Translations under genes and position numbers: made by a program
Source: Branchiostoma floridae
Taxonomy: Eukaryota > Chordata > Leptocardii > Amphioxiformes > Branchiostomatidae
Assembly: GCF_000003815.2 (NCBI RefSeq)
Contig: NC_049987.1
Coordinates: 12,579,625-12,643,624, forward strand
Reading direction: 5' to 3'
Length of the DNA stretch: 64,000 nucleotides
The notes under the pieces: model-generated
What the model saw: only the letters and a program-made list of their open reading frames with translations
Told to the model about the DNA's origin: nothing
Databases searched by the model: none
Shown here: positions 2,235 through 35,100 of the stretch, in pieces
How the letters are laid out: each line of letters opens with the position of its first letter
How positions within the stretch are numbered: the first letter of the stretch is position 1

Positions 2235-5200
2235 TTTTTGTTATCTGAAATACACCACCTGTCTGCTGAACTGTGCCAAAGTTTTACGGAATTAAGCTTT
2301 ACTTTGTCAAGATGAAATATAGTGTATGTATGGAAACGTGCTATAAGCCAGAAATTCCCTATTGCCCATTCCTGTGTGTTGCAGTATAAAAGTGACAATG
2401 GAAACATGCAGCAATGCTGTCCACCTTAGCAGTGTCATGAGGACTACAATAAGCAGAATATAAAGCTAGAGAATGCACTTCCACAGGTGCCATTTACATT
2501 GTATTTAGAATTGAACAGAAAAAGTTGTTGGTACATGTTGTACAATGCCAAATCTTGAAAGGAATATTGTTGCATTTAGACAATTATAAAGATGATGTTT
2601 ATTTTTTAAAGAGCGTCATGACTCAAAACAAACATATGCATTCAGTGCCCAAACCCCCATACTTGTTGCCGTGATTGGTAAGTGGTCTTAAACAACCCAA
2701 GGATTTGTGCTTGACAAACATCTATGTAATCAGTGGTAGATTCTTCCTTATTTACATCCTATCAGATGACCATTCTGTTTGTCCTCGATCAATTGACTCG
2801 ACCATGTTCATGTCAGATTATACTGGATACTACATTTTTTGTAACTTGCAAATCAACAACTTTTAAAGCCTTTCATTCCTCTATAGAAGCTGACCAGAAA
2901 TAACTGTAAAATATTTGTATATCTAGCTATATGTTGTGAATTTTATTTTAAGCAATCCATGTTCAAGGGGAATACTGCAATGTCCACTTGCTTGCCTCTC
3001 CAAAACCACTATAATCTCATGGCAAAATTGAATTGATTGCTATATCAATGTATAAACTTTATACCAACTTATTAGTCTTACCGCCCCTACGGCTTCCTGA
3101 GCTACAGGACTGATGGATGGATGAATGGATGACTTTAGCAAATCACTTTCTGCTACAGTGGAGTGTATGTTGATTTTGTTCAAAATAAAGATTGATGCAT
3201 GAACATCAATGCTAGTGCTTTTTATGCACATACAAGAGCCAGGGGAGGGTAATCCTTTCTTCCTGTCACTAAAGCATCTTAAACATTAAGGAGTCATGTT
3301 TCAGTAAAAAAAAGTTACAACCACTTTGCAGTTTATGTTTTTATTATAGCTACGAACATAAAAGTCCTTGCACAATGCTATTACAATGCTAATTTAATAA
3401 AATAGTTACATGTGCACTGTTATCTAGAGAAACCCTGCCACCCCCATGAGGTGATATGATGGAATCTTCTGAAAGCTGTGGGTCATGTTGACGCCACCAT
3501 TTATATCTGATAGGGGTGGACAAAGTGTTTTGTGTGGATAATGGTTAATTGCACCACTTTACAGCAGGCCCTCCATGGAGGCTCTAACAGCTACGAAAGC
3601 TTGGTTTACAGCAGAATTATACAACATATAATACTGGTAGCCAGTTTGTAAACATCTCTTCGGCTGTACTATGGCACAGTGAATGAATAATCAAGCCTAC
3701 AACATACTGGTACAACTAGTCCTTTTACTATACACCAATCCTTCATGCGGTTGGTCCTGTCGCAAAATATTTTCCCTGTGACATACACAATGTTATGATA
3801 ATCTTTCCTTTCCTTATACAAATCCCGGTTATAAAGGTTACATATTCTATGTTATACATACACTAATTCTTTAAGCCATACTACAAATGCTTTCCATTCA
3901 ACAGAATACAAGTGGTTTTGACAGGACCAGTCCAGGAAATCAAGAAATAAAGGTGTTGAACTGCTGCTAACAAATGCCCTTGCCAGCATTATTCCAACCT
4001 TAGAAGGTATAAAACAATGCGGCATAAAAACTATTACTTGGGCTACAAGGGTGTTGTAAGTACCACATGCCTTAGTCCCTGTCATTTGACTCTTTTCCAA
4101 CCATAACTTAAGGTAGATAAACTGTTAGCTTTGACATATATAGCATAATTGCAGTGTGTATGTACACATGTACATGTACAATAATGTAGAAAAGCACTTA
4201 CACCTTTGTCAAGTGATTATCAGTCAAACTTTTAGGTCTTAATGTATGACAAACATGATAGTGCCAACTCTATAGATAGATAGACAGACAGATATATGGT
4301 TCCTTTGTTTAGTGGTGTTTGAATTTTTTACCGCAATATTAAAATAGACACAGACCTATGCTGCAGATACTGTATTTAGAGAATATAATAAGAATATCTG
4401 GTTTAATGTACAACCACCATAAGAACCAATACCACCCAACAGTCCCTTACTCTTCTGTACAACTCTGATGGCTTCTGTCATTAATGATACATTTTCCAAG
4501 CATTAACAATTAAGCATGACTGGGAAGTGGGAAAAAATCATTCTAAGGACAACAGCGCCCCCTACTGGAATATACGGGAAGGACAAAGAATATTCTGATA
4601 CCAACAGCTTCAGTCTATCATTTGAATCAAGAAATAAACAATCCAGTTATGATAAAAATGAAGAATGGTCCTCAGACCAAAATTAAATGTTCAAGTATGC
4701 ATGGCATTACCTTCAAGTTGACTTTTGAAGTCCCATCTCATGATCCAGTCAACAAACTCTTTGAATTTGGTACAATTCTCATGACCTTGACACCTCAGCA
4801 TTCTCTAGCTAAGGCATATCCTGCAATTACCTTTCATTGTGCTTTGCAGTTGGAGTTGGAAAGTTTGTTAGTAACATGTTCTGCCTTTACAAATGCAAGT
4901 AACATGTTTGTGAATCCTTAATATGACTATGGGCCCAGTATAGCAGTTCCACTTCACAACCTGACATGTATAAGTTACATTTCCACATATACTACACAAG
5001 TAACAAAGGAATGACTACTACAAATAAATGTCTTTCTCCTCCACTCTGGAAACCTATCACACTTCCTTTCCATCTGTCAAGTACTGGCCAAAGTGGCAAT
5101 ATGGTAAGGACTGCAGCTTTGCAAGGCTTGTGTACATGGCCAAATCTGTGGAATTAAAAATATTCTGGGAGAGGAATGCGATGTATCCAGGATTTCAAAA

Positions 5201-5846
5201 TATCTAACCTAGCCTACTACGGCTCTGGTAACTGATAGTTTGTTCAATTTTTCTCTGCAATACTAACTAAACACCTAATAGCCAGCGAAAGTTTGATGTG
5301 CTCAAGTACTACTTGAACAGTCTCTGGTCAATGCACAAAGTGGTACATTAAAAAATGACATGCACCATCCCTTGTCACTATCCTTTGGCATTGTTGATCA
5401 CATTTTTGACAGAGAAGAACATATGCAAATCATCAGAGGTTATTGTAGAATCAATACATAAGCTTCCGCAAGAGGACAGTCTTGTCTCCCCAATAAGAAA
5501 GATGGTACTTTTCAGAAAGATGATTTGTCAGCACAACTAGTTTAAGTTATGGGAGTCACCATCTAATACATGTATTGCCCCATGCTTGCCAGATATTGCG
5601 TGATCTGGAGGAATACCATCCTTCTTAGACTTAGGGAGACAAGACAGAGGAATGAACATTCTGTGGCTTTCAGACACTTGCGTGAAGGCTTACGGCTGCA
5701 CTAGTACTAATACTGTCATTTGGAATCTTCATCTTCATCTGTTTGTGAGCTAGTTTAGTCCTTCAGTCACCTCCTGTAGAAATTCTACACATGCCCAGTA
5801 GGTTCTGTATGAGTGTGTGGCTTGTTTGTCGATGTGTTGAGCATGC
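2235..5846. other. 3' UTR of the KA1-domain gene and intergenic sequence, no gene seen
   Basis: AT-rich sequence without long open frames, splice-bounded coding segments or recognisable protein similarity on either strand. It contains a short (TAGA/CAGA)n microsatellite near 4275-4293. The right part is probably 3' flank or 3' UTR of YRDC, whose distal terminal exon ends at 5847 on the - strand. Confidence 0.5.
3184..3189 (+). terminator. Candidate polyadenylation signal AATAAA for the KA1-domain gene
   Basis: An exact AATAAA lies 950 bases after the stop codon of the KA1-domain gene. It sits in AT-rich sequence that looks like 3' UTR. This is a motif match only; the cleavage site was not seen. 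Confidence 0.35.
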
Positions 5847-5934: not shown

Positions 5935-8900
5935 CTGCAAGAAAAAGAGAAAGAATTACTGATACAGCTCATTGATATTCCTTGCTATCCCATAGTTCTT
6001 TGCCAATTATAAATCCCATAATCCTTCACCTGAGTTGGTCCTGTGACCCTTTTCCATGATCCTTGATTGCATACAAAAACTTCATACTACAATGCCATGA
6101 TGTTCTCTTTTCAAAGACCACAATCCTTTTTCCCCTTATCAGTCCAACATAATCATGTCCCCATAGTTATTTTCTTCCTAATTACACCACTGCAAAAACA
6201 GGCCATACAGCCACATGCTTTTCTACTGTAGAACAAAGATGGACAGGTTAAAAGGGGTTACTGAGATGGCACCATGCAGTTTCTCACGCAGATAGGATTC
6301 TAACAAGGAAGAAAAAAACAAGGCAAAAGACACAAACTCCATGTAAGTGCACATATAAGTTCACCTTTGCCTATCCCCTTAAAGAGGTACAAAGTACTTC
6401 TAAATGTACCTATTTGTGTCTTATCACAAGACACCAACAGACTTTTCAATAATGACGTTGCTTTTGTGAAAAGATCTTAATTGTGACGTATGAATCTTAA
6501 GATCAAATCTACATATGATAAAATCTATCTATGATAGGTAAGAAAGTCATGCTTGTAATTCAACCAAATTCTTTGAGATAAACAAAGTTTCCTTCTCTTG
6601 ATATGTTTGTTTAGGCATCAAAAGATTTCTGCAGGAATAGATAAGTTCACATTTTTGCATGCAAATTATGCTTGGATGTCACCAAGAGACATCCCAATGA
6701 TACATTGATACTGACAAGGATTAGTCTGATGGGAGATTAGAAATCAAACTCAAGAGTGTGAAAGGAAGGTACTGGTACACCAGCAGCACACCACACGGAG
6801 AGAGCACACAAACATGGCAGAACGCAAACCTCCAGAAGCAAAAGCAAAGCAGGGTCAGGGGTCATAGGTCAATTGTGCGCTGGCAGGATGTATTCGGTGG
6901 CGTCCTTCAGGTCGTACTTGCTACCCAGTATCTCAACCGTGGACTTGTACCCACTGTGGACAATGGGACCACAACACTTACAAACACACATCATTTTCAA
7001 CCCTTACCTCGGTTGTTATGATTTCAGCTACAAGTCTATCTATTATTACAAGTAACGGTTACATCTATCTATTATTAGTAACAGCAACATTTCCCTTCAA
7101 AAATATATTGCACAGTGACAGGTGACAAGTATCTTTCAGTTGTTGTTCTTGCCACAATTGGAGATCAAAATAGCTGTTAATCTGAATATTTTTGCGATAA
7201 ATGCAAAATCAATCAATAATCATGATGGATCACAACTAAATAGATTGTTCACATCCACTGTTTAAAAGACATCAGCATGTTTTTGGCACACTCTTCATTT
7301 TCATAAACACTACTGTGCACAAAATAATACTGTGAGATTCAGATTTCAAAAATTGATATGAGCTTAGATCAATTGATCATATCTAAAGACTGCTGGGTTT
7401 GCAATCCTTGCAGTTTTTCTATGTCAGTGTAGCTTTGACATGTATCCGATCATGTGCAATTATTGCTATGTATGGCAACATATGAGTTTCCCAAAGGACT
7501 TGCCCTACTTTTCTAGAAAATGATGCAAGTAAGGAAACTGCTGAAAGTGTTTTCATCCATGCTAAGTTGAGAATAATAGGACATCGCTGTTCCCTCTAAC
7601 AATCTGTGATATTGATTAATTTGCTGTCCAACAATTCAGCCAAAGCTGCACTACTTTGTTCTGGTCTGAATTGAGAGCAAGGTATTGATTTCATGGATAC
7701 TTTAGTTTTCCCCCATCTTTATTTTCTTTGTACCGTTGTTGTGTAACTGGTTGAACACCAGTGTTTCCGCCAGACCTCAGCTGGGAGGCCGTCCACCTTG
7801 GGGCGCGAAAACCGCGAAAATTAAATTTAATTGTAAAACCGCGAAAAGTAAATTTAATTGTAAAATCGCGAAAATTAAAGTTAATGGTTAACTGTCGCAA
7901 GAAAAAACAAAACAACTAACGTCCGATTAAGTTCAGTGCCGAAGTGTTATGATCTGTGCCGCGTACCGGTATGCCGCACCGAACGGGTACTACGACTTTT
8001 AAAAAGTTCTAGAAACGGTTCTTGGACTTTCAAAAAAGAAATAGCATTTGTATATATTCTCTTTTATGTTGTGGTATACTTCTAAATCATCTAAAACCTT
8101 CCATAGATCGAGAAATTTGCGTTCAGAAATGACGAAAAACATCGTCTATCGGCGACAGTGAGCGTAATGGCGGCCGAAATCCCGCAATCTCACGTGGTGA
8201 CTTCTCGCGAGATCTGGGAAAGCTACCGACGTCACGGGAAACTAGCGCTGTGATTGGCTAGGATACACAACAACTACCGACCGCCATTTTTGATGCGTAA
8301 TTATCCCGAAAATTGCTGCCGTTTTCGGAGATTTTGCGGGCTCAAAACTCATATAAAAAGGAACCAAAGTTATACTTGATGTTTTTTACGTCCATCATCT
8401 CTTATGTGAACACTTTATTTTTCCGCTGTGTTGCCGATAGCGAACTTGAACGAGGTCGATTTCCCGTGCCGAGCACCCGGGCCGGTGGGCACATGTATCT
8501 GATTGTGTTTTGTTTTGTTTACGATGATTGACGATGAAAACAGAGACTAAAGTTGTTAATCTAGACAAAGTTTAATATTGTGTTGTCTTATTTCTCCCAA
8601 TAACAAAGTTTAGTTTGTAGTGTTATACTTATAGCGAGATCGACCTACCGCCAAGTTTGCGAATTATGTGACAGGGCAAATTCGCGTAACTGAGGCCTTG
8701 AAAAACGGGTTTTGATTATCGTATGCGAAAGGCCGCCGACACACATTGCCAACAACCATAACAATAGCAAAACAAACAGTGAGCGGCTTTCTGACTGTGG
8801 ACGGCGTCCCAAGCCTCTAGCTTCAATACAAAACTGCGGTTTACATTTATCAACTTTGTACAGATTTCTCGGCAAAATGTGGGTCGCAATTTTTTTATGA

Positions 8901-18400: not shown

Positions 18401-20495
18401 GTGTTTTATTTTTCATTCTAATATCCTCCTCAGTTAATTATGATTATATGTTGTTAGGTGTTAAAGATTGGAATAAAAATCAGGATTTAAGTATATCAAG
18501 GCCTGTCGTGCTTACAATGCCTATTGTTAAGTAAATCATGTGCATGTACAGTCCTGACTGTCATGTATTTTATTGTCCCATGTCTCCAGGTGTTACAGCT
18601 GATTCGAGACAGACCAAACATCTGTAACCACCTGCACCTGCCAGCACAGAGTGGCTCGTCCCAAGTGCTGCAGAGCATGCGGAGGAACCACACCCGTGAG
18701 GCGTACCTGGAGCTGGTACAGCACGTCAAGAAGGTCATACCAGGTCAGCAGGGCCAGTGTTGTGGTCTTGACTACACATCAGAATTTTGCTTTTGGAAAT
18801 ACAGTTTTAGGTCCTTATTTTGGAAATAATAAAAGGAACCATTGTTTGTAATTATCTATATATGTATGAGAAAATTAATCTCGAGGCAGATTTACTAGTG
18901 GCATGAGATAGCATCAAAGCTGGCTAAGGAGCACAGCTGGCCAAAGGGAGTTATCAGCCACAGGTAGCACACTCCTAGGCCGGCTTCAGTCCTCTGGCAG
19001 CTTTTGTTACTATCTTATGCTACTGTAGGATCTGCTTGGAGATTATGAGAAATGAGAAAATTCATACCAATTGATATGACAAGGTTGTTAGATTATTGAT
19101 GTGGCATATGAAACATTTTATCATGTTCCTGTGTTGTACCTGTTGTTTAGATGTTTCCCTGTCCAGTGACTTCATAGTTGGGTTCTGTGGAGAGACTGAA
19201 GATGACCACAACCAGACCCTATCACTGGCCAGACTAGTCAGATATGACAATGCATACCTGTTTGCTTATAGCATGAGAAAGGTAACACTTTTACTCTGCG
19301 ATTTTCTGGTGGTTTATTGATTTTTCTACTTAACATTTGTTGATACAATGTTCTTGATAGACGAACAAATTTAGTTAAATGGCAATAGAAAATGTACCAT
19401 GTATGAAAGTGATCCCCTGTCAACCTATTACATGTAATAGTAACATAAAGGCTGGAAATATAAGATATTTTATATTATCTCTTTCCATACTCATATGATT
19501 ATACTATTATCTTTGCTAATTATAGGTGTTATTTTGTTTCTGTACAGAAAACTCATGCCTATCACAAACTCATGGATGATGTGCCAGCAGATGTGAAGCA
19601 GCGCCGCCTAGCGGAACTGATTAATGTGTGCAGGCAGGGCATGGCTGAGGCCAATGCAGAGAAAATAGGACAAGTCCATCTAGTGCTGGTGGAAGGGGTG
19701 AGTGTCTATCCTTAACAGAAACATTGAAAAGTTCTAAATGTTTTTTGTATCAAATGTGTCAGATGCTGCTCCTCCCTATCTCAGTGGAGAAATTTGAAGT
19801 AACTTGACCTTTGTTCAGATGACTGATAACCTGGTATCTTTCAGGTCCCAGTTTGTATCCACTTTTGGAAAGGTAGTGACTTTTGGAAAGCATGCACAGA
19901 CTGGGAACGGATGGATACCAACCTCTTATGCAGGCTATTTTGTACCTCTTTAGGTTATTTTATCTCCGTATAAAGCAAGATTGACATTTTGTGTGCAGGT
20001 CAGCAAAAAATCAGCCAGTGACCTGGCTGGCAGAAATGATGGAAACACAAAGGTCATCATCCCAAATATGGACATCCCTGATGAGGTCGGAGGTCAGAAG
20101 AGCTCACCAATGAAAACAGGTGACTACGTTGCAGTCAAGGTGGGTTTGGATTGTGTCTCTTTCACCAATCTTGTAAAGGTAATTACAACTGTAACAATTC
20201 TCCTAACACTGATCAAAAGGTCAGTCAGTTAACCAGTTTACCATTATGTAATCTTTCTCTCAGTTTTAACTAAACTGTTTGAATCTTTTTTAGAACATCT
20301 GCAGAAAGCGAGATGATTTTTAGTAACTGTTTTCTGTGTTGTATATTAAGATAGATGCAGTTGTTCCTTTTTTTTCAGATAACATCCTACACCTCCCAGG
20401 TGCTGAAGGGCATTCCATTGGCTCACACTAGCCTGCAGGGGTTTCGCTATATGGAATTGCAGGGACAAAGAGCAGTCAACAGTGCTCAAACATAA
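15429..20495 (+). CDS. CDK5RAP1: CDK5RAP1, mitochondrial tRNA methylthiotransferase (MiaB-like radical SAM enzyme)
   Basis: Converts i6A to ms2i6A at position 37 of mitochondrial tRNAs. Eleven exons, all phase-consistent: 15429-15801, 16157-16291, 16599-16809, 17418-17538, 17673-17805, 18088-18188, 18590-18743, 19151-19281, 19548-19697, 19999-20139, 20379-20495. Product 588 aa (human about 600). The N-terminus ([20 protein letters not shown]) is basic and acid-poor, like a mitochondrial presequence. The UPF0004 domain carries its three cluster cysteines in [17 protein letters not shown] and LGCMAERL. The radical SAM motif is [19 protein letters not shown] (CxxxCxxC). Further matches are [30 protein letters not shown] and a C-terminal TRAM-like segment (LVLVEG ... 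GDYVAVK). No key residue is missing. Intron 3 contains a MITE. Divergent with YRDC; AATAAA at 20579. Confidence 0.96.
16859..17230. mobile_element. MITE with CAGGGCTCGAAATA termini in CDK5RAP1 intron 3
   Basis: Begins CAGGGCTCGAAATA and ends ATTTCGAGCCCTG, with a 6-base direct repeat TATATG on each side. The interior carries repeated GTGCACCCA/TGGGTGCAC units near both ends and no conserved coding frame. A second element with the same termini lies at 39894-40230. The termini look hAT-like, but a clean 8-base duplication is not visible. Confidence 0.75.
18894..19026. mobile_element. Possible small inverted-repeat element in CDK5RAP1 intron 7
   Basis: AGTGGCATGAGATAG at 18897-18911 is repeated in inverted form as CTATCTTATGCTACT near 19010-19024 (two mismatches). 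The intervening ~100 bases are more GC-rich than the surrounding intron. No target duplication was identified, so this is a weak call. Confidence 0.4.
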
Positions 20496-20578
20496 TTGTT
20501 AAGAAGGACATATTGCAGCAATTGCATATGCAGAAATTCGACATAAAACTTAGTAAAAGTATGAGAGGAAAGATGGAA

Positions 20579-20584
20579 AATAAA
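20579..20584 (+). terminator. Polyadenylation signal AATAAA of CDK5RAP1
   Basis: An exact AATAAA lies 84 bases after the CDK5RAP1 stop codon, in AT-rich sequence, at a spacing typical of a short 3' UTR. Confidence 0.7.
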
Positions 20585-21070
20585 GTATGAATTATTATTT
20601 ATTGACATCAGTTATTGAGAGGCTGCTTTAATGGTGATGGACAAGGAAGGATTTTTGGAGGTATCTTTTAGACCAGACATTACACCACTTTCTCTGTAGT
20701 AAAATGGCAATACAAGCAACTTCCATCCTTGCGTATAGATGCTTAGTTGTAAAATTCTAATGGTCAACAAAATGAGGTTCATCCAGATTTGAAAATAAGG
20801 ACTGTTCCCATCTGTTTTGGGCTGACTAAAGGAGAAACAATATCCCCAACATTTCACTCATGGTACCTTGGATTGCTGTACTAGGCATATACATTTTCAT
20901 ACTTGAGTAGATAAGACTTGGAAATTCTACAACTTGATATAAAAGTTCTTACTATTGTCTGAACTTCAAACAAAGCTTTTGAATACTTCTGCTCTTTCGT
21001 TCCTCATTTATACAATACAATGTTGATTTACACACATCTAAAAATGACTACAAGTGTTCCTTTACAATGT

Positions 21071-24017
21071 CTACATCTTTCTGGTGATGACCACATATCC
21101 AGGTCCGTCATTTGCCCCATTCTGACAGCTTGGGTCAGTACCACAGTTGAACGAACCACCACCTCCTCCACCATTGGGATTAAGGAGAAAATTTGCTCCC
21201 CTACCGCCACCTGAGTACCCCCCTCCCCCACCTCCTCCTCCACCGGCCCCATAACCCCCTCCCCCTCCACCAAACCCACCATCAGCATTATTATTACATT
21301 CCCCACACCCTCCAACTCCTCCATTCACAAACCCCTTCCCACCTTCCCCACCATTCTCACAACCGTCGCCTCCATATCGTTTAGAACTCCCTCCATCTGT
21401 CAGCAGCCCTCCCCCTCCACCGCCCATGTTGTTACTCTTCCCTTCTGTTGCCCCCTGTCCGTTAGTTCCTCCACTGCAGCCAGTTGTTCCATAGCTCTTG
21501 TTACCAGTAGTGGACGCAGTCCCATTGCAGAGGGGATTATGGGTCTGTAACCAATACCCCCCACCAAAACAAACCAACCTCCCCCACCCCCAGCAATAAT
21601 GAGTGGCTTGTTGTCTCCCCTGGTGACAAATGTACCACCCCCTCCTCCTACACTCCAGTTAGCCTTGTTCTCAGCACCTTCTTGTCCCACCAGGATCTTT
21701 AGAGTTTCACCTGCAGAGTAAAAAAGCGACATCAGATTTTGTATCTATTGCTTATCATAATCACCTATCCCTCTTGTAAGCAGAAAGACACAAATTTACC
21801 ACACTATTATTTCTTCTATTTAACACTAACGTTACATGTATCAGTAGAACGAAAGCTGATTATCGTAATCAATCCTAATTTTTCGTCATGGATTTGTGAT
21901 ACTCTCTGCCACTGTTGACTAGTTACCTAGGTGATGAAATAAGATATGGCGTTTACTGTTTCATACTTTCACTTGAATAGACTAAAAGGAACAAGAATAG
22001 ATTAAAAGGAACAAATATCAGACCTTGTTTAAGCGTAAATGTTCCATTTAGCATGGCACCCCGTCCTCGGGCGGACTTTGGGTTGTACATACCCCATCCT
22101 GCCGCAGCACCTGTCAATCAAACGTCAGGCACGTTCAGTACAGAGATCAGCTACTAGATAAAACTAATTCCATGTGTGAATTTTTCATTGTAGATTTAAA
22201 TTTTTTTTTATTATCTCTCGAGCTTGATGAAGCAGACATTTTTCAATTCAGTATTACTTCACATTTGTCGACCACTAAACGGTCTATACCTGCCACCTCT
22301 ATGCTGAATGCCCCCGTCTCCGGTACAGTGAAGTGCTGTATCCCGTCATGTAGCGTCACCAGGTGTTCATGGTCCTGTCCCCTGTAGTGGTTCCCCATGG
22401 TAGTGGGGCCCAGACGGCCGGTGGTGCCCAGGGTGGTGAACTTGGCAGTGCAGAATGTGGAATCTGCAGTTACAATGGTTATGGAATAGTGTTCATCAGA
22501 TATTCAATAAATATCAAGCATGGTTTAGGCTAACCAACATTTGAAATGTTCAGAACCTCAAAGCATACTTTTTCCAGGCTCCCTTCACCATCGTCTTACA
22601 ATCCCAATCTGCCTTCTAACTTTCACTCCTGAAGGCGAGATTCAGCACATACGACTACTAAATGCAAGTTTAATAACGCTTGAAAAGGGGGGAATTAAGA
22701 GGAAATAAAATCATTTCATGTGTGGATGACACCCATTGAAGTGACTTGGTGGCCTTACGTGGAGAGGTTTTATGTTGAAATGTGTGTCAGTCAATGCGCT
22801 GTCTCAAGTTATTTTCTTACAGCTGAGTAATGACGAGATTTCTACAACAAATGCAATGATCACTTCATAAGGGGATCAACAATAATACTGAATAACCTAC
22901 CAACAATGTCCCCAAAGATGATTTCCCTTTCTTTCGAATTCCTTTCCGTCTTCACATCAAACCTGACGTAACTGATGTCGTCAGAAATGTCCGGGGTTGG
23001 ACCTTTCAGCAGAGACTCGAGCCGGGCCGTGACGTCAGAGTACACGTTCATGACGTCAAAGTCACTGCCATGCTCCACGACTTTCTGTGAGAAGTCCACT
23101 GTGCTGGACAGACAGCCTAAGGTGCTCTCAACACTGTCTGCTGTAGCAGAGAGCTGTTTGGAACGGGCTGCTCTGACGGCCGCTAACTTTTCTTTCAGTT
23201 CAGTCTGCTTGCGTCTGACCAGGCCACTTTAATACTTGATCTCTTCCTCCGCAGCTGCATCGATGTCGTCTGCAGCTTTCTTGCTTCTGGTGTTCAGCTC
23301 TGTTTGCTTCTCAGTTACGACACCTGCGATATCTCGGTATTCCTGAAATTTCGGCATGGCGGTCTCGAGTTTGTCTTTGATCTTTGCCCTGACGCCACTC
23401 ACGACGTCTGTCAGCAAACCGTACTTGTGGTCCTTGTGCTGCAGTACTGTGCAATCTCGGCAGACGGGGTGCTGGCACGTCTCACAGAAGAACTTCAGCC
23501 TCTCATCTTCGTGTTTTGTGCAAATCGGCAGTGATGTTGGCTTGACTGATGACGTCTTGGTGATCAGATGTTCTTCAAGTTCAGCCACGCCGATGGCTTC
23601 ATGATCGCGTGTACGTTTGGCACGGCGGTGGGCACGAACGCATTCGTCACACAAAAACTCTTCACACAAAACACAACCACAGCTAGCCACGTCTTCTTCA
23701 CAGACATCGCAAGGAACTTTGTCATCCTCTACATTAGCCACACTCTTGTGTGTTTCAACGGTGTCCCTCAAGCTCAGGACGAAAAAGTTGTTTTTGAGCC
23801 CGGCGATACCACCATCTGGAAGTACAGTTTCGGTCCGACATGTTGGACACTGAAACTTGTCCTTCATCAGTTCACCTTGTTTCCCTACAAACTTCTCCAG
23901 ACAGCCCTTACAGAAGGTGTGAAGACACGGCAGGACCTTGGGATCCTTAAAGGGCTCCAGGCAGACCGTACACTCCAGAAAGTCGCCCGAAATCTGGCTG
24001 AGTATGGCTTCCGCCAT
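21071..24017 (-). pseudogene. RING/B-box/coiled-coil protein with ALK-type glycine-rich C-terminus, copy 1 (frameshifted)
   Basis: Exons (- strand): 24017-22901, 22463-22290, 22110-22024, 21710-21071. The first encodes a RING (CTVCLEPF ... CLHTFCKGC ... CPTC, residues ~14-60), B-box 1 (CDVCEED ... CDEC ... H, ~100-140), B-box 2 (CTKHEDERLKFFCETC ... CRDC, ~165-205) and a coiled coil: TRIM-type E3 ligase architecture. The remaining exons match the extracellular glycine-rich region of ALK/LTK (TTLGTTGRLGPT, GAAAGWGMY, ETLKILVGQEG, poly-Gly, ADGGFGGGGG, GYVVITRKM). Two lesions are visible. An in-frame TAA (23229-23231) lies in a 21-base GT...AG segment shared with copy 2. The last exon changes frame between about 21540 and 21595; one missing base in or near the six-C run 21557-21562 would explain it. 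It is either a decaying copy or carries a sequence error. Most of the frame is otherwise intact. Confidence 0.75.
23215..23235 (-). other. 21-base in-frame GT...AG segment carrying a TAA stop (copy 1)
   Basis: On the - strand the coiled-coil frame reads ...EEEIK, then a 21-base stretch beginning GTATTAAAG and ending GGTCAG, then RKQTELKEKLAAV in the same frame. The stretch is exactly seven codons and contains TAA. The identical stretch occurs in copy 2 at 29223-29243. It could be an extremely short intron, a read-through site, or a fixed nonsense insertion inherited by both copies. The sequence alone cannot decide. Confidence 0.6.
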
Positions 24018-24484
24018 TAGCACTTACACCTGCACGCCTCAGGTGAGGATGTGCGGATACAGGTACCGGTGGACTTTGAACTTTTGTTCAAGACAGGGTC
24101 ATAGTGCATGCTTACAAATGCATAACGTTTCAGCTGAGGGCCGATTGGGGCTATAAACCAAACGGTATATTTTGGCCCCCTGTACCCTGGTATTATTATT
24201 ATAAATTTTTGGCATAAACTATTTTGAAATGATTAATTTCAGCACTTTTCTGAGGGAAAATTGGTTTTCTTTCGGCCTTCTGCCGTGACGTCACCCCACA
24301 GAGCTCCACACCTGCAAGAGCCTCGGCTGAAGCAAGAGTTAATTGAATTTGATAAGCCAGCCAATCAGCGAAGAGGAAGGCGAAGGCTAATTAATATTCA
24401 TAAGCGGGGCCTTCCAATCCCGTATATATATAGAAACACATGCATGTCGTGACCACACAGCGGACGGATCACCCTACGCCCGGT

Positions 24485-24504
24485 TATATATATATATATA
24501 TATA
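24485..24504. repeat. (TA)n microsatellite
   Basis: About ten uninterrupted TA units followed by an A-rich tail, in the spacer between duplication units. Confidence 0.9.
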
Positions 24505-25806
24505 AAAATAGTAGTTTGCGAGGATTTGGAGTTCACGACAGGGTTATTTGGACGGTAGCAGAAGGTACGCGTTCCTTGAACGCTAGGGTACAAGTCTTTG
24601 TCGATGAATTTTGCAACATTCTGCGTGGCAATATCAATCATTTTCGGTAGATTTGACCTTGGCAGGGTCAGTTGAGACAATCGAGGAAATGTTACTTGGC
24701 GGAAATCACGGGAAAATTGGCCAGTTTGCGTTTAGTTTTGATACGTAAGTTTGACAGTGGCGAGAATGATTATTTTCTCATCAATATTTCTCGTCAGAAT
24801 GTTTTGAACTGTAAATCTAAACAATTGGCTTACCTGTGCAATGTTTATATGAAGAAAGATCAGTGGGTACTGAAATTATGTGTAACTTATTGCTCTTAAG
24901 TCAATAGATCAGCATTTTCTCCACTAGTGGCCACCTGTCTATAGTTGGCACATTTCTCTCACTGGACTGAATTATTACAATAAGGCAATATTAGGTCAGG
25001 TTTCAGGAAAAAAATATCGACAGGGCGGTAAAATTCTTTTAAAAGTTTGAGACGTCGCCATTTCGGTAATGGCTCATGCAAAACAAGAAGAAGATTTAAG
25101 TTTTCAGCTTGAAGAAAACAAACACTCCTACTACACAGTACCTACACCTGCTTGATAATTAGTAAATTAAAACTCATGACCAACTTTAATAAAAAAAAAA
25201 TCACTGCAATGATAAATGTACCCACATCACAATGAGCTTAAAACGGTACTTGGACCCAGTTATCGTACTGAAAATTGTTGAATTAATGGCTTCATGTCAT
25301 TTCATGATGAAATTTTTCTGAACGGAAGGTGTGGTGATTTCTCTCACTTTCGAAAAAAAAAGGAGCTGGCGATTCCAAAGTTTGTTTGTTTGTTAATGCA
25401 AACCAATTGGTAGTTATGCCTAGGAGCTCCTGTGGAAGAGTACATTCTTCCATATGGGCATATCGGGTAAGCTCCATTTTGAACTGAAATCAATTCACAA
25501 TATTTGTTCATTTTTTGGGAGAAGTTACTGTTAACGGTGCACACCCCATTTCTTCCGCGACCGGGGATAGTCCCAAATTATTTTGGAGTGAGGGGATTTA
25601 GCATCCGTTTAGTGCCCAGTTACTTAGTGTAAAATTAGCGTAGCGGATCCAAATCGCTGCTAGTATAAAATTCGACCCCTATAATGTTGTTTTCGGTAAG
25701 TTTTTGTCGACGAATCTTGGCTTCCGGGTATCGCTCCGCGGACGCAAACGTCATCGCTACGGGCTTTCGAAATGCATTAGGATATTCATTATTGTGAGAT
25801 TTTAGG

Positions 25807-25988
25807 TACAGTCAAACCTGTATTAGGGGCCACCTCTACAGAGGGGTCACCTGTCCATAGTGGCCACTTTTTGTCGGTCCCTTGGGTATTTTATCTACAA
25901 GTTACCACCTCTATACAGAGGCCACCTGTCTATAGTGGCCAAATTTGTCCGGTCCCTTGAGTGGCCGCTATAGACAGGTTTGACTGTA
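25807..25988. mobile_element. MITE with TACAGTCAAACCTGT terminal inverted repeats
   Basis: The left end TACAGTCAAACCTGT is exactly inverted at the right end as ACAGGTTTGACTGTA; total 182 bp. The interior carries repeated GGCCACCTCTA/ACAGAGG and CCTGTCTATAGTGGCC units. A short related fragment (GGCCACCTGTCTATAG) lies near 24929. There is no coding capacity. Confidence 0.85.
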
Positions 25989-26161
25989 CTAGAATTTTCT
26001 TGTAAATCAGATATGGTACATTTTTACTTGCATGCTGTATACTGTATAGGTGTAGTTCCCGGGGACAATTTTGTTTGGAAATACCGGTACGGCGTCGTTG
26101 AAAATAGTCTCTTCAGTTAACTAAACGTTTCAATGGGGGCGAGAAACTGGGGTGTGCCCCT

Positions 26162-26209
26162 AAAAATTACACGGGCGCTCTTCCTAGGAAGAGCGCCCGT
26201 GTAATTTTT
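26162..26209. repeat. Perfect 48-bp palindrome without spacer
   Basis: Two 24-base arms meet at CCTAGG. The left arm starts AAAAATTACACGGGCGC and the right arm is its exact reverse complement, ending GTGTAATTTTT. The arms are GC-rich at the centre and AT-rich at the edges, so the DNA could extrude a cruciform or the RNA could form a long hairpin. Confidence 0.95.
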
Positions 26210-26860
26210 CCGACTACTACTATATCTGCGCGATTCAACCTCTGCTTGGAGAGTACCTAAATGTTCCATTTTCGAGCAGGGGTTATTTGGGACAGTTAAA
26301 TGTTGCATGGGAAAAGGTATGGCTGAAATATGCTGTATTTGCTCCTAAGCAAATGTCGGCCTTTCTAGTTTCATTTCAGATTGGGATACAGGTGACTGAA
26401 ACACATCTATGTATACTCATAGATATATGTTAGGGACATAAATTCGACTTTGTTTGCGGTGAACTGTGTGGAAACAATCACGATACATGGAGACATTGCG
26501 CAATCGCGAGAAAAACACCATATTTTCCATTGAAATGTTATGTTAGAAATAGCATGTTTAACTCGCTTGTGCATTATACATCCCCGTACAAAAGCACGCG
26601 CTCTTAATGAACTTGAACATCTAGTAGGTCCCATACTTGAAGGCGGCCCACTGCTTTTTTACCTGGATCCTAGCGACAAGCTCCTTGTGAGGTCAGACGT
26701 GTTCCCGACCTATGAAGGCCTATGTTGTTGCCGAGGTGGGTTCAGATTGTTACTTTGTCAGTTATCTCGTAAAAGGTAGCTGCAACAGTTACAGTTCTTC
26801 TATTGTATTTTCTATGCTGTAACTAAGGTTAATGAAGCTATTCCTTCTTCTTTTTTCCAA

Positions 26861-26989
26861 ATAACATCGTCCACCTCCCAGGTGCTGAAGGGCATTCCGT
26901 TGGCTCACACCAACCTGCAGGGGTTTCGCTATATGACAATGCAGGGGCAAAGAGCAGTTAACAGTGACTTGACATTGCTGTTAATTTAG
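26861..26989 (+). pseudogene. CDK5RAP1: Duplicated terminal exon of CDK5RAP1, splice acceptor lost
   Basis: Reads [20 protein letters not shown] and on through GFRYM and QGQRAVNS, nearly identical to the true last exon (20379-20495), with a new stop TAG at 26987 instead of the original TAA. The acceptor TTTTTTCAG of the parent is TTTTTTCCAA here, so the invariant AG is gone. Only the tail of the preceding exon can be traced, near 26700-26738, with weak similarity. No upstream CDK5RAP1 exons are present, so this is a non-functional by-product of the segmental duplication. Confidence 0.9.
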
Positions 26990-27186
26990 ATGCGCATATT
27001 GTAATACTTGTACAAATACAAGCTGGAAAATGATTTATGACTACCATGTTCTACAACTTACTGTAAATGTCATGACTACTGTAACAGGCTAAGCTCAGTC
27101 TGTGCTCGATGGGCAGCGTTTATCTTTGCAATATGATATAATGTAGATTTACACTGTTTAAAAGATGGTGACTACAAAGTATCTCC

Positions 27187-30022
27187 TTACATCTGTCTGG
27201 TAATGACCACATATCCGGGTCCATCGTTTGCCCCACCCTGACCGCTGGTTTCAGAAATGGAGCAAAATGAACCACCACCTCCCCCACCACTTGGATTACT
27301 CCACTCTCCCCTACCACCCCCTGAGTACCCCCCTCCTCCACCCCCTCCACCCCCACTCCCATGAGCCCCTCCCCCTCCACCAAACCCTCCATCAGCTTTA
27401 GAAGAATACCCAATCCCTCCCACCCCACCATTCACAAACGCCTTCCCACCTTCCCCACCATTCTCACAACTGTCACCTCTAAAATGTTTAGAACTCCCTC
27501 CATCTGTCAGCAGCCCTCCCCCGCCTGTTAAGTTACCCTTCCATTCTGTCGCCCCCTGCCCGTTAGATCCTCCGCTGCAGCCAGCTCGTCCATAGCTCTT
27601 GTTTCCAGTAGTGGACACAGTCCCGTTACACAGGGGGTTATGGTTATGTGATCCCCGCCCTTCCCCTCCCCCACCCCCGGCGATAATGAGTGGTGTATTG
27701 TCTCCCCTGGTGACAAATGTACCACCCCCACCTCCTACACTCCAGTTAGCCTTGTTCACTGCACCTTCTTGTCCTACCAGGATTTTCAGAGTTTCATCTG
27801 CAGTATGAAAACAGATAACTGTTAAACATAAGATTTTGTTTTCAGTACTTCTCATAATAAACTATCTTTCTTGATTACGGAAAGACAAACATTTTACCAT
27901 ACTCCCCTGACAACCTTTCTGTCAGTGCAAGTTACTAGAACGAAAGCAGATAATTTGTCATTTTTCTCTGCATACGCTCACACCTCTTCTGAGATTTGTA
28001 CTACTTGCACTGCACTGCTCTACAGATTGCTTGTCAACGAGAGACCGGTGAAATTAGGTACAGTGTCTACACATGCACAGTCTTACTAAAACAGACCAAT
28101 AGAGAATCTTTTGAAACGCCGCACCTTGTTTAAGGTTAAATGTTTCCCTCAGTACGGCACCCCGTCCTCGGGCGGACTTTGGGTTCTTCGAATTCATACC
28201 CCATCCTGCAGCAGCACCTGTCAATAAAGTTGAATCAACATGTTAATCACTTTCAGTACAGCCTCGGAAACAACAACAAGAAATATAAAATGAGAACACA
28301 GATACTGAATGAAAAAAAAGATTTATTAACAAAGTTGTAGCTGGACTCTTTTCTTGATGATATCAGAACTGCACCCCTAACGCATCGATTATTTCTGGGC
28401 GCCTGATTAAGAACAGCACACTGTACATCAGTTTGATTTGTTATTAAAATCAATCCCTACCCGCTGTCTCTATAGTGTACGTTCCGGACCATGGTACAGT
28501 GAAGTGCTGTATCCCGTCATGTAGCGTCACCAGGTGTTCATGGTCCTGTCCCCTGTAGTGGTTCCCCAGGGTAGTGGGGCCCAGACGGCCGGTGGTGCCC
28601 AGGGTGGTGAACATGGCTGTTCGGAAGAATGAATCTGAGGGGGCAGAGGTTATGCTATAGAGTTCATCGAATATTCAACAACATTGGTTTAAGCTGAAAA
28701 AAGTTAGGAAATGTTGTGTGTCCTAAAGCCCCCTTTACAAATCAAGAATTTAGCTCGGCCGAGTTGTCAGCGAGCTCTAAATCACGAGGAGGCATGACCC
28801 TGATGCCTACAAACAAATAGCAGGGTTTCTTCGTCGGCATCAGGGTCATACCTCCTCGTAATGTAGAGCTCGCTGACAACTCGGCCGAGCTAAAATAATA
28901 CCAAATAACTGTACCGACTATGTCTCCAAGACTTATTTCCTTTTCTATCTTTTCTGTCTTCAGATCAAACCTGACGTAACTGATGTCGTCAGAAATGTCC
29001 GGGGTTGGACCTTTCAGCAGAGACTCCAGCCGGGCCGTGACGTCAGAGTACACGTTCATGACGTCAAAGTCACTGCCATGCTCCACGACTTTCTGTGAGA
29101 AGTCCACTGTGCTGGACAGACAGCCTAAGGTGCTCTCAACACTGTCTGCTGTAGCAGAGAGCTGCTTGGAACGGGCTGCTGTGACGGCCGCTAACTTTTC
29201 TTTCAGTTCAGTCTGCTTGCGTCTGACCAGGCCACTTTAATACTTGATCTCTTCCTCCGCAGCTGCATCGATGTCGTCTGCAGCTTTCTTACTCCTGGTG
29301 TCAAGTTCTGCCTGTTTCTCATTTATGACCCCTGCGCCATCCCGGTATTCCTGAATCTTCGGCATGGCAGTTGCGAGTTTGTCTTTGATCTTTGCCTTTA
29401 CGTCACTCACAACATCTGCCAGCAAGCCGTACTTGTGGTCCTTGTGCTGCAGTACTGTGCAGTCTCGGCAGATGGGATGCTGGCACGTCTCACAGAAGAA
29501 CTTGAGCCTCTCATCTTCGTGTTTTGTGCAAATCGGCAGTGATGTTGGCTTCACTGATGACGTCTTGGTGATCAGATGTTCTTTAAGTTCAGCTACGTCG
29601 ATGGCTTCATGACCGCGTGTACGTTTGGCACGGCGGTGGGCACGAGCGCATTCGTCACACAAAAACTCTTCACAGAAAACACAACCGCAGTTAGCCACGT
29701 CTTCTTCACAGACATCGCAAGGAACTTTGTCATCCTCTACATTAGCCACACTCTTGTGTGTTTCAACGGTGTCCCTCAAGCTCAGGACGAAAAAGTTGTT
29801 TTTGAGCCCGGCGACACCGCCCTCCGGAAGTACAGTTTCGGTCCGACATGTTGGACACGGAAACTTGTCCTTCACTTCACCTTGTTTCCCTACAAACTTC
29901 TCCAGACAGCCCTTACAGAAGGTGTGAAGACAAGGCAGGATCTTGGGGTCCTTAAAGGGCTCCAGACAGACCGTACACTCCAAGAAGTCGCCCGAAATCT
30001 GGCTGAGTATGGCTTCCGCCAT
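27187..30022 (-). CDS. RING/B-box/coiled-coil protein with ALK-type glycine-rich C-terminus, copy 2
   Basis: Exons (- strand): 30022-28915, 28634-28461, 28217-28125, 27797-27187; phases agree and total 662 codons including the internal TAA and the final stop. Domain order: RING (residues ~14-60), B-box 1 (~100-140), B-box 2 (~165-205), coiled coil (~205-370), then a domain like the glycine-rich extracellular region of ALK/LTK receptors: TTLGTTGRLGPTTLG, GAAAGWGMN, ETLKILVGQEGAVNKANWS, long Gly runs, and GPGYVVITRQM at the end. No signal peptide or membrane segment is seen, so a cytosolic ubiquitin-ligase-like protein with an unusual C-terminus is inferred. The only lesion is the in-frame TAA at 29237-29239 inside the 21-base GT...AG segment. 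If the stop is real, the product ends after the coiled coil at ~261 aa. Confidence 0.75.
28749..28894. mobile_element. Foldback element with ~58-bp inverted arms in an intron of copy 2
   Basis: The left arm starts TTTAGCTCGGCCGAGTTGTC and the right arm ends GACAACTCGGCCGAGCTAAA. The arms are near-perfect reverse complements over about 58 bases (small differences near TAAATCACG/CGTAATGTA), with a loop of about 30 bases. It is absent from the corresponding intron of copy 1, so it inserted after the duplication or was lost from copy 1. Confidence 0.85.
29223..29243 (-). other. 21-base in-frame GT...AG segment carrying a TAA stop (copy 2)
   Basis: Identical in sequence and position to the segment at 23215-23235 of copy 1. 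The flanking coding frame is open on both sides, encoding AAAEEEIK before and RKQTELKEKLAAV after. Confidence 0.6.
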
Positions 30023-30153
30023 TAGCACTTACACCTGTACGCCTCAGGTAACTGGATACAGGTGCTTTATGAACTTTTGTTCAAGATAAGGTCACAGCGC
30101 ATGCTTACAAAGGGATAACGTTTCAGCTGAGGGCCGATTGGGGCTATAAGCAA

Positions 30154-30776: not shown

Positions 30777-32102
30777 TTAATGACAACCTGCCTGAGCTGC
30801 AGTGATCTTGTCGAGTTGTTGGCCTTTGAGCTGTTCTGGGCTCGCACATATCAGTGACTGGTACACGGTGATGTTAGTCTCGGTGTGCAGCCATCTGTTG
30901 AAGCGCCACAGGTCACAGTCACAGTGCCACGGGTTGTCCAGCAAATACATGGTCTTCAGCGTCTGGACATGGCTGCTGAAATGGTCCGGAGTGAGGGTAA
31001 CAAGGTTGTTCTCTTGCATGTTGATACTCTGAATGCTGTCAAGACCGCTGAAAGCACCTTTGGACAGAACTGCCAAGCCAAGTCCCTCCAAGTTAAGATA
31101 CTGCAAATTTGGCAGGTTTGCGAAAGCATTGTCATCAACCTGGCCGATCGGGTTGTTGGATATGGTATACGACTGAAGAGACTGAACAAAGCGGAACATT
31201 TGTGACGGGATCTCGCGAAGGTTACAATGGTCAAGGTCTATGCTTGTCAGTGACTCATTCAGCGTGCCGGGGGCGAATGCGTCTGGATGGATCGCAGACA
31301 GGTTCGGGTTGTCTGCCATGATGAGAGTTGATAACTTCTTCATTGTCGAGAAGGCGTAGCCAGGAACGGCGGCAAATCTGCCGTCCTGGACGTACAAGGT
31401 TTCGAGATTGACCAAACTGTTGAAGGCGTTATACGGATACTGGGAGGACACGGGTGTTATCAGTAGGAACTTCAGGTTTTTCAGCGGTTCGAAGGCTCCG
31501 TCAGCAATAGAGTCTATTTTGTTGGCGACCAGGTCGAGCGTCTGCAGGTTGTCTAATCCCGTGAATGCGGTGCTGATGAGAGAGTCGATGGAGTTTGTGC
31601 TCAAATTGAGCAACATCACGGAGCCCAAACCACTGAAGGCGTTACTTTCAATATATCCCACTTTGCCAAAAGGCATCATAAGATACTCAAGCTTGTCTAG
31701 GTTGGGGAAAGCGTTCGACGGGACGCGTGTGAAGTTGTTGTAGTAAAGAACTAATCGGGTGGTATCTGGAGGGAATTTCGGGATCGAGTCCAGGACGCCA
31801 AAGCACACAACGGTGGAAAAACTACACGAGCACCCATTGGGGCAGTCGTCATCAAACCTGGTTGTAGTGATCTCGTCTCTAACTCTAGCTCCGTCTTCAG
31901 TCATGGGGTCATCTCTGTCAGCGTCATGATTGTGCTGAGCGCCAGGCTGCTTCCGATGTAAATTCGGGTTCGTCTTGTCCAATGGGGCTCCGTGTTCCTC
32001 ATGGAGTGGGTTTTCACGAGTCCCCAGGCCTTCCACAAGACTGACGTTACAGAGGACAAAGGTCAGTGCCACGCCCACCCAAACCACCTGTAGCGACGCC
32101 AT
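30777..32102 (-). CDS. Secreted leucine-rich repeat protein (LRRNT - LRRs - LRRCT)
   Basis: A single coding exon of 441 aa. The chosen ATG (32102, context aacATGG) opens a classical signal peptide (MASLQVVWVGVALTFVLCNV). An upstream in-frame ATG at 32129 lies before a sequence resembling a splice acceptor (cctcgtacag), so a 5' UTR exon may join there. After a charged linker comes an LRRNT cap (CPNGCSCS...C, from residue ~87), then about ten LRRs of 22-25 residues (L-x-x-L-x-L... NAF/GAF), and an LRRCT cap (NPWHCDCDLW ... C ... C) at the very end. There is no membrane segment or GPI-type tail, so it is secreted. The build resembles the LRR cores of lamprey VLRs, SLIT-family and amphioxus VLR-like proteins. 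The ligand is unknown. Confidence 0.85.
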   Translation of the reverse strand: MASLQVVWVGVALTFVLCNVSLVEGLGTRENPLHEEHGAPLDKTNPNLHRKQPGAQHNHDADRDDPMTEDGARVRDEITTTRFDDDCPNGCSCSFSTVVCFGVLDSIPKFPPDTTRLVLYYNNFTRVPSNAFPNLDKLEYLMMPFGKVGYIESNAFSGLGSVMLLNLSTNSIDSLISTAFTGLDNLQTLDLVANKIDSIADGAFEPLKNLKFLLITPVSSQYPYNAFNSLVNLETLYVQDGRFAAVPGYAFSTMKKLSTLIMADNPNLSAIHPDAFAPGTLNESLTSIDLDHCNLREIPSQMFRFVQSLQSYTISNNPIGQVDDNAFANLPNLQYLNLEGLGLAVLSKGAFSGLDSIQSINMQENNLVTLTPDHFSSHVQTLKTMYLLDNPWHCDCDLWRFNRWLHTETNITVYQSLICASPEQLKGQQLDKITAAQAGCH

Positions 32103-32129
32103 GTTCCCTGTACGAGGCAAAAATACCAT

Positions 32130-35100
32130 TTTATCGATACCAGCGGATGTATTATTAATAATTCACGGCTATTCATAAGGAAATCTAAGTCAAACGAAGG
32201 ACGATCTTCAACGATAATGAACTTGTAATTTGCATGCTAACTGATAAACGCACAACAATTTTAGGGCTAGGGATGAAAAACAGAACTGACAACACCTCTC
32301 CGTTTCGAAGTATCAAGCCTAGAATCACTGATGAACAGCACACGGAATATTGCCGGCAACATACAAGCTAGGATAGTAAATAAAAGGAAAAGACATACTA
32401 GTACCATATGCACAGGCGACACCTGGAGGTAAGAACGACCGGTAGAGCTTTATCTTTGCACCGTACGTCTATAAACAAACCCTTGATCAGTCACGTGGCC
32501 GTGCATAAAGGTCAATGACCCATTCTTACCTCATCTACGTACTTTGGATAAAAAGTTAGATTCTTTTGAAGCACAACCAACCTCTTGTACGTGTATGATT
32601 GACATTTAGAGTCAAGTTAACTGCAAGTGAATCCACTCTAGTAATCAAATTGTGTACCTTACAGCCAGTGTATAACCCCCGCAACTAGGGGTGGGCCGGG
32701 GACCGGTATTAAGGTAGGTTTCCATCTTGGACCGGTAAAAAAAACGAACCTGAAATTATACCGACAGATGTTCACACGTTTTTGGGCTTACCGGTCAAAG
32801 AAAAAAGAAAGAGCTAAGTAGAGTTCAATGTATAATCGTTTCTACAGTCAGCAGTTGGCGTTGTTTACATGAAGATAGGATTTTCAAAGGCCAGTGAAAT
32901 TGAAAGTCGGATACTCAACCAGATTCCTTTGTAAGGTAATGGGCCATTATTTTGAGTATCGCCTATTCACAAGTTTTCACAATCAGGTCTAGGTCCGGAC
33001 CCGAACTTTCTATACCGATACCCACCCCTACCCACAAACATAGTGTGATATCATATATGGTATAGTATTGGAAACTATGCTGTGAATACTACAATTCCTT
33101 TACTTTATTTCATTGGTTTGTTGTCGCTCGCTCGGAATCTCCGCATGACTAGTTTCCTCAACCCCTTTATAAGACTACATGTAAGACATATAATAAATAC
33201 GCCTCGTATATGATTGAGTTGAAACACTGAAAGAACCAGCCAGACAACTTATCCACTGAAATTAGGTTTTTATTGTACGTTCATCAGGACGGCCTGACAT
33301 AAATAGCACACGACAAGTCTGTACAGTGTCTGACATGCGCACATGACGTCAGCTTTCAGGTGACGTCATGCTAACAATAGGTGCCCTGCTCAAGAAGCCA
33401 TCCTTTTGCTGTTAACCAAGGAGGTTTAAAAAAAGATTTTTAACCTCCTTGTGTTAACACAGCGTGATCATCAGTTCAGTACTTTCCTCTGCATTTATCG
33501 TCTCTTCAAATGTCTATTCATTCCATGGGAGCGTCAGGTAGCAAATGGAATATGTACATCGAGATTTCCGGGGCCACAAATGGCAACAGTTAAACATGTA
33601 AAAGAAGGAGATACTCAATATAGATATTGACACTTATCTTTTTAAGTTCAATTTCTAGACGTGAGTGAATCACATCTGTATACTGGACTGCTAGTGTACT
33701 TATGTCCACATAGGTTATAGCTTGTTGCCATAGCAACACCACTAGTCTACATTGCGCTAGTCACGTGTCAAAACGCTGCCACATGGCGTTCCCCGACCAG
33801 TAGAAAGAGTAAAATCGCGTTCACACATTTAAGACACACAGCTAGAAACAAAAGAGAAATCCTTCTTGTTTCTGTCCGAAGTGACACACATTAATTGACT
33901 TGAACCGGGATACTCTTCTTCAGAGTTGTTCAAATAATGATTGGAATATCAAGTATTCTTCATGTGCTATTCCATTTTGTAAGTTAGGAGGGGGCTCTCA
34001 TCTACCAAAACGCCTTCATTAACTTTCTAATTGCGGGGTAATTGCAACCGAAACATCGGTACTTTTACATTTGCCTGTGCGACAGGCTCATTATCCGTTT
34101 GTTGGTCAGACGCGTTAAAAATAAAAACATAAAAGACCAACTTTGTTGTTGCGTTTATTCTAGATGTGACGCGTCCATGTTCTTTACATCTGAGGAACTG
34201 AGACTTGTATCAAAACCGAAATGAAAAACGCAGGGGAAAGATAATCCAATACCATCACATCAAATTTTAACCGTCGATACATTGACGGCTGAGAGGGTGA
34301 ACATAATAACAAGACCGGGTCTCAGGCTAGTAGATAAAAACGGCCAACTTAAATGTTTTAGATCATCCGCTCTCCTAAACTTTTAAAATGGAATGGCTTT
34401 ATTATCGAAGTACACAGACTTGTAACGTGTGATGAGCTAATTAAACTGGCTACAGAGTCGCCGTGTAGGAAAAATTCACTCCAGGCATTAATATAAGAAG
34501 AAACGCTGTCACGTTAAGTATTCAAAAGAATAACAGTTTTTTTTAACGTATCACAACATATTTGGTACAAAGCATATATCGTTACACAGTGGGTTTCAAA
34601 CAAACATAGTTGACGGTTTGTTGTGGTACATGACAGTCACAACATAAACCAGCTGTTACAAACAGACAAGCTCTAGGTAGGTTGCACACTGTGATATTTT
34701 TCCACTAGGTTGGATACAATGTCATCTACCTGACTATTGAGAAAACATGTCAAATGCCATGGCAACAGCAACTTGGCACATTCTTTGTTGTCCCACAGCA
34801 GAAACAAGTACTAGTATTTTCTTTATTCATCTTCATCTTGTTTTTTTATTCGTTGTCAAGCTTTTGAGGAAACTAATCATTTCATTATGTTATATTTTGT
34901 CATATACCGATCATATAGCTGTGCTACAAATTCATGCATTGTTGATGCTTCTTAACTGTAGCTCTGTCATTCTGCTCTATTTATACATACATTATCTGTT
35001 TTTTTTCTTCCTTTGCTACAGTTACAGAGTTACTCCTCACACAACAGTGGCTGCTGCTCGAGTGCGTAGCTGTAGCCCAATGTACAAAACGTTTCCCCTT

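Follow-up and report, generated by a model that had tools for sequence, protein, structure and literature searches.

On its minus strand, the 64,000-nucleotide stretch of Branchiostoma floridae DNA analysed here (the window) carries two tandem genes, an upper copy U (30022 to 27187) and a lower copy L (24017 to 21071), which we read as a pair of members, probably disabled not long ago, of a TRIM-type gene family ending in a glycine-rich domain (GRD) of the ALK/LTK type, whose working members would be cytosolic E3 ligases recognising diverse ligands through loops of the GRD. We give this reading as a whole a probability of roughly two in three.

Exon layout and gene family

Both copies consist of four exons, A to D, separated by three phase-1 GT-AG introns, and all exons given below lie on the minus strand. 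Exon A of U (28915..30022, from exon reading and Pfam) encodes a RING, two B-boxes and a likely coiled-coil region split by a stop codon, followed by three GRD exons delimited by exon reading and PDB searches: exon B (28461..28634) with the GRD start (FTTLGTTGRLGPT...), exon C (28125..28217, GAAAGWGM...), and exon D (27187..27797), which holds the poly-glycine part and ends in GYVVITRQM plus a stop. Exon reading in L gave an exon A with the same modules, also broken by a stop (22901..24017), the GRD start in exon B (22290..22463), GRD exon C (22024..22110), and a poly-glycine exon D (21071..21710) in which a 14-nt length difference shifts the frame near 21555-21580. Pfam identified zf-B_box (5.7e-13, in two stretches) and RING (8.3e-10) in U exon A, confirming the RING and two B-boxes named in a first-pass annotation of this DNA, and the RING and both B-box stretches exceeded the Pfam cut-off in U as well as in two uninterrupted members of the family. 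Exon A likely includes a coiled-coil region after the B-boxes, where a weak PML_CC match (0.0024, below cut-off) was found in C12:19199958 only. Known C-terminal classes of TRIMs comprise PRY-SPRY, NHL, MATH, filamin, FN3, PHD-bromo and others; such classes, B30.2 included, gave no Pfam match in the sequences scanned.

The first-pass annotation had placed two tandem copies on this strand at these coordinates, quoted motifs from their GRD exons and proposed their exon junctions, and all of this held on re-reading, with the motifs present and the junctions phase-1 GT-AG. Its chain from RING/B-box exon to GRD exons stands as to order, phases and junctions, but it had missed the L exon D frameshift and an in-frame TAA in both exons A, located by exon reading at codon 262 of U (29237..29239, also by paralogue comparison) and codon 263 of L (23229..23231). 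The TAA follows ...EEEIKY in both copies, with 261 (U) and 262 (L) codons before it; the frame is open at this position in the paralogues compared, the nearest of which has Tyr there. Because of the two TAA codons and the frameshift in L, neither window copy is translatable as the proposed fusion without readthrough.

The duplicated pieces of the upper copy span 26847..30149 and their partners 20367-24156, as separate pieces and no single continuous block. Comparison of the U and L introns gave no clean contrast; the best pieces reach 79-88% identity over 28-76 nt, and intron 2 scored no higher than shuffles. Several further features were observed in the window. An inverted repeat, ~87% self-complementary, occupies 28749-28894 in U intron 1 and has no counterpart in L in a repeat comparison; it is possibly a small transposable element. 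A long leucine-rich-repeat open reading frame (30777-32162, minus strand; LRR_8 3e-44) lies directly upstream of U, and plus-strand exons at ~19464-20484, two of them without a Pfam match, presumably resemble the end of a CDK5RAP1-type gene; a piece of these exons (20367-20484) is duplicated at 26847-26966.

A search of the 513.4-Mb genome with a 107-aa coiled-coil part returned at least 92 matches (131 candidates scored), and one with GRD exon B at least 34 (40 candidates). Exon B was found downstream on the same strand in 16 of 30 coiled-coil-bearing loci read, U and L included; the downstream reach at these loci ranged from ~1.5 to >7 kb, and the other 14 are therefore not counted as being without exon B. 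At three further loci, coiled coil and exon B were paired by coordinates alone. Exons B and D were both present in 11 loci, nine of which were modelled as spliced genes with splice sites of our own choice, in two models picked from several candidates or at a shifted acceptor. Seven of the nine models, including those at C12:19199958 and C3:11914109, are uninterrupted (664-670 aa) and have the same exon order and phases, the other two being U and L; first introns in the nine span 137-1564 nt. At C12:19194192 there is no AG at the acceptor normally used for exon B, and one six bases further was taken; the exon B start was picked by frame at C3:11914109 and C9:22629096. The two loci left unmodelled look damaged: C9:11637713 has a stop in exon A and no exon C was found there, and C16:5604160 has no RING match in frame with the coiled coil. 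The RING/B-box plus GRD layout is a gene family and not a one-off. The shuffled gene initially proposed, with an ALK-type GRD where PRY-SPRY or NHL is usual, fits the family, given the seven uninterrupted four-exon models elsewhere in the genome, but not U and L, which have a shared stop and, in one of them, a frameshift.

It could be argued that U and L are plain pseudogenes with nothing further of note. The in-frame TAA common to both and the frameshift in L speak for this account, and as a description of the window genes today it is correct; it is nevertheless incomplete, as exon A before the stop is constrained between U and L (28 silent and 23 replacement differences, omega 0.21; binomial p 2e-7 versus neutrality) and open members exist in the family. 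As the whole explanation we consider it improbable, though worth keeping in mind.

Exon B matches also included ten on C4:1.64-2.01 Mb and one at C18:12895168. At C4:1803611, C4:1820648 and C18:12895168, the 3.3-5 kb upstream of the GRD yielded no RING/B-box module; with GRD exons at three loci having no RING module nearby, the domain is not confined to TRIMs. Six related scaffold genes (L035-L039 and L041) read MATH-like repeats instead of a GRD (Pfam MATH 3.4e-23 on one L035 unit), and in a tree built from 28 RING exons these six group as a single clade among the GRD-bearing ones; with its long branches and open forks, this tree makes the order in which domains were swapped no more than a lead. 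Other domains were seen downstream of paralogues. At L034 (C4:30443000-30452900) a WWE domain (4197-4556, 1.4e-9) lies downstream of C4:30445236, which is closely paralogous to the window RING exon, and is perhaps another C-terminal swap. On the gene strand of L032 (C9:13549800-13559700), two Death domains (4190-4501 and 7266-7607; 7.5e-9 and 6.2e-14) lie downstream of C9:13557464, the paralogue closest to the window genes, and are candidate partners. At L033 (C9:7012900-7022800, gene strand, ~4002-5801), long tandem-repeat open frames with SMKSSQSAAAHP-type units lie downstream of a paralogue.

The glycine-rich domain and its loops

In ALK and LTK, the GRD belongs to the extracellular part of the receptor kinase and folds as a polyglycine helix bundle. 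A phmmer search of the PDB with window GRD exons B-D matched LTK (7nx0, 3.3e-9) and ALK (7mzy, 2.9e-7), largely through the non-poly-glycine part, which upholds the ALK/LTK-type identity first suggested for these exons; domain 1 of the ALK match (7.2e-7, residues 8-102) had a bias of 0.1. The profile check of the C-terminal exons against the ALK GRD family, suggested in the annotation, was positive in the PDB, where a profile of six GRDs found only ALK, LTK and SCD-2 chains up to E 1 (best 1.8e-13) and aligned colinearly over positions 8-269 of 293, the poly-glycine part contributing a large composition bias. The Pfam side of the check fell short, as ALK_LTK_GRD (PF12810) scored 13.4 bits on the window GRD, below its cut-off of 24.5. 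With an E limit of 1, five of the six members matched PF12810 (best 1.4e-4), one member also matched Gly_rich_2 (0.023), and two full-length open models gave no GRD match in Pfam at E 0.1. No kinase match was obtained in the scanned models, which run from the RING to the GRD. Judged by these sequence comparisons, the C-terminal module of the window genes is homologous to the ALK/LTK GRD beyond its glycine composition. A search of the lancelet's own genome for the GRD with the Pfam family gave only one ALK-like locus (1 match, 2 candidates), L001 (C1:13892393-13895539), with probable ALK/LTK orthologue exons whose GRD intron layout seemingly differs from that of the TRIM-linked GRD.

Across ten pairs from five open C12-type genes, omega was 0.19-0.48 for the RING exon, 0.22-0.55 for exons B and C, and 0.40-0.65 for exon D. 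Exon D showed 4 replacement versus 29 silent states in glycine columns and 91 versus 31 in other columns, with clustering of replacement changes (p = 0.0002 in 5-codon and 0.003 in 8-codon windows; silent changes, p = 0.17 and 0.10). Site models M1a and M2a were compared with a script of our own in place of PAML or HyPhy, on a small number of paralogues, which exchange sequence; for exon D of six genes, equal codon frequencies, the most conservative setting, gave a 2dlnL of 53 with 13% of sites at omega 4.5, and F3x4 and F61 gave 150 and 174. The selected class comprised 12-13% of sites over the three settings, and the selected sites fall in short loops between glycine runs. Leave-one-out values ranged from 32 to 62, including 35.3 without the sixth gene (C16, with the damaged RING part) and 55.9 without the C356 gene (on a small contig, and perhaps a haplotype copy), the two halves gave 31 and 14, and 30 simulations without selection gave at most 0.08. 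Wrong topology or one odd sequence was rejected as the source of the signal, which the star tree, leave-one-out and halves all keep. By the same test, 2dlnL was 0 for the RING/B-box/coiled-coil exon, with 5 as with 11 sequences, and 1.9 for exons B and C. U and L themselves differ at 17 of 29 loop residues versus 21 of 168 elsewhere (p = 2.5e-7), loops being defined as 14 sites from the six-gene model with one residue on either side. The GRD loops are under strong positive selection and the RING/B-box exon is constrained; by analogy, loops changing this unusually fast may resemble immune recognition surfaces. The 'new recognition module' guessed at in the annotation gains independent support from this loop-specific selection, with no such signal in the RING/B-box exon, while recognition itself is what we infer.

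A different account of the same domain would make it a low-complexity glycine tail for self-assembly, with loop variation reflecting relaxed constraint and not recognition. The near-neutral ratio at many non-glycine sites of exon D is what such a tail would give, and an AF2 model of exon D alone reached a pLDDT of 31 and gave no fold. Yet the fitted site class lies above neutrality, far beyond the null simulations, the glycine columns are strongly kept, and most of the GRD profile can be aligned to the ALK GRD. We regard the glycine-tail account as unlikely, and retain a GRD with selected loops.

The shared stop and the integrity of the models

The stop lies within a gene-conversion-like 327-nt tract (28964..29290, minus strand) in which U and L show 3 differences, versus 11.9% divergence outside (permutation p = 0.0002). 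dS between the copies is 0.027 inside this tract and 0.234 outside; measured against the paralogue L032, which lies on the same contig at a distance of ~0.95 Mb, the corresponding values are 0.041 and 0.367. Gene conversion as the cause of the tract would account for its low divergence as well as for the stop common to U and L, in which case the stop can be younger than the U/L duplication; U and L would then have become disabled recently, as is probable.

The stop might instead be functional, yielding 261/262-aa RING/B-box proteins without a GRD, or be passed by TAA readthrough. Such a role would fit the constraint upstream and an apparent constraint downstream within exon A (8 silent and 7 replacement differences, omega 0.25, p = 0.012). 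The downstream stretch, however, coincides with the low-divergence tract, near-identical also to L032, so that its apparent constraint is weak evidence for readthrough and leaves room for a young stop; on this overlap, a functional or read-through stop was rejected as the main account, and we hold it to be quite improbable. A still weaker proposal, that RING/B-box and GRD exons are separate neighbouring genes, could draw on GRD exons elsewhere without a RING module nearby and on models known from genomic sequence alone, but was rejected as highly improbable on the repeated exon order and phases, since nine models agree in order, strand and phase-1 junctions with first introns of 137-1564 nt, exon B recurs downstream in the loci counted above, and exon B starts inside a codon. 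The preferred reading of the window remains that of two probably disabled members of a family of RING/B-box-GRD genes.

Proposed action and comparison with known systems

Working members would be transcribed as one mRNA and probably act in the cytosol, where the coiled coil would dimerise them and the RING would recruit E2-ubiquitin. The GRD would form a constant glycine scaffold displaying short hypervariable loops, and these loops may bind diverse foreign or fast-evolving ligands and bring them to ubiquitylation. A broader proposal, which we advance tentatively and at somewhat less than even odds, is that lancelets possess a family of cytosolic ubiquitin-ligase immune receptors in which ligand is bound by a polyglycine scaffold of the ALK type that carries hypervariable loops, convergent with the B30.2 of finTRIM and TRIM5alpha and, in design, with a phage-adhesin polyglycine sandwich, the same TRIM body having also exchanged its C-terminus for MATH and perhaps for WWE or Death modules. 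If this holds, a domain known chiefly for ligand binding in the ALK/LTK receptors, the GRD, would have been reused intracellularly as a diversifying E3-ligase recognition surface. It would then be a further kind of recognition domain in TRIMs and an instance of convergence with the antiviral B30.2 TRIMs, and would offer a testable idea of variable-loop display on a glycine scaffold.

Judged by titles and abstract starts among the matches listed, the open-licence PMC literature holds no description of a RING/B-box plus ALK-type GRD combination, and gene databases may already annotate such models. The words 'glycine' and 'alk' do not occur in the accessible main text of PMC3503706, and 'glycine' is likewise absent from the accessible text of that paper, PMC3137616, PMC12373286 and PMC5787515.

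The ALK/LTK GRD is homologous to and colinear with the TRIM-linked GRD and sits on a membrane receptor kinase, whereas the TRIM-GRD models have a RING at the start and the GRD at the end. Closest in scaffold are the Branchiostoma subfamily C TRIMs, which according to the accessible text of Marin 2012 (PMC3503706) carry MATH domains on a RING, two B-box scaffold like the one seen here; L035-L039 and L041 look like this type, which ends in MATH repeats where TRIM-GRD genes end in the GRD. The accessible part of PMC2657112 describes finTRIM, with 15.6% of sites positively selected under M2a, and a concentration of selection in finTRIM and TRIM5alpha in loops of the C-terminal B30.2 recognition domain. 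finTRIM thus resembles the present genes as a TRIM multigene family with positively selected loops in a C-terminal recognition domain, and differs in that the domain is B30.2 there and GRD here, and in that some selected sites of finTRIM lie beside the RING (PMC2657112) whereas the TRIM-GRD RING exon has none. In the gp38 of phage S16, as outlined in the accessible text of PMC6851490, a polyglycine sandwich sets glycine-rich motifs between hypervariable segments, the distal ones being proposed receptor binders; gp38 is a phage adhesin and the likeness is by analogy only, but it too pairs a glycine lattice with hypervariable segments.
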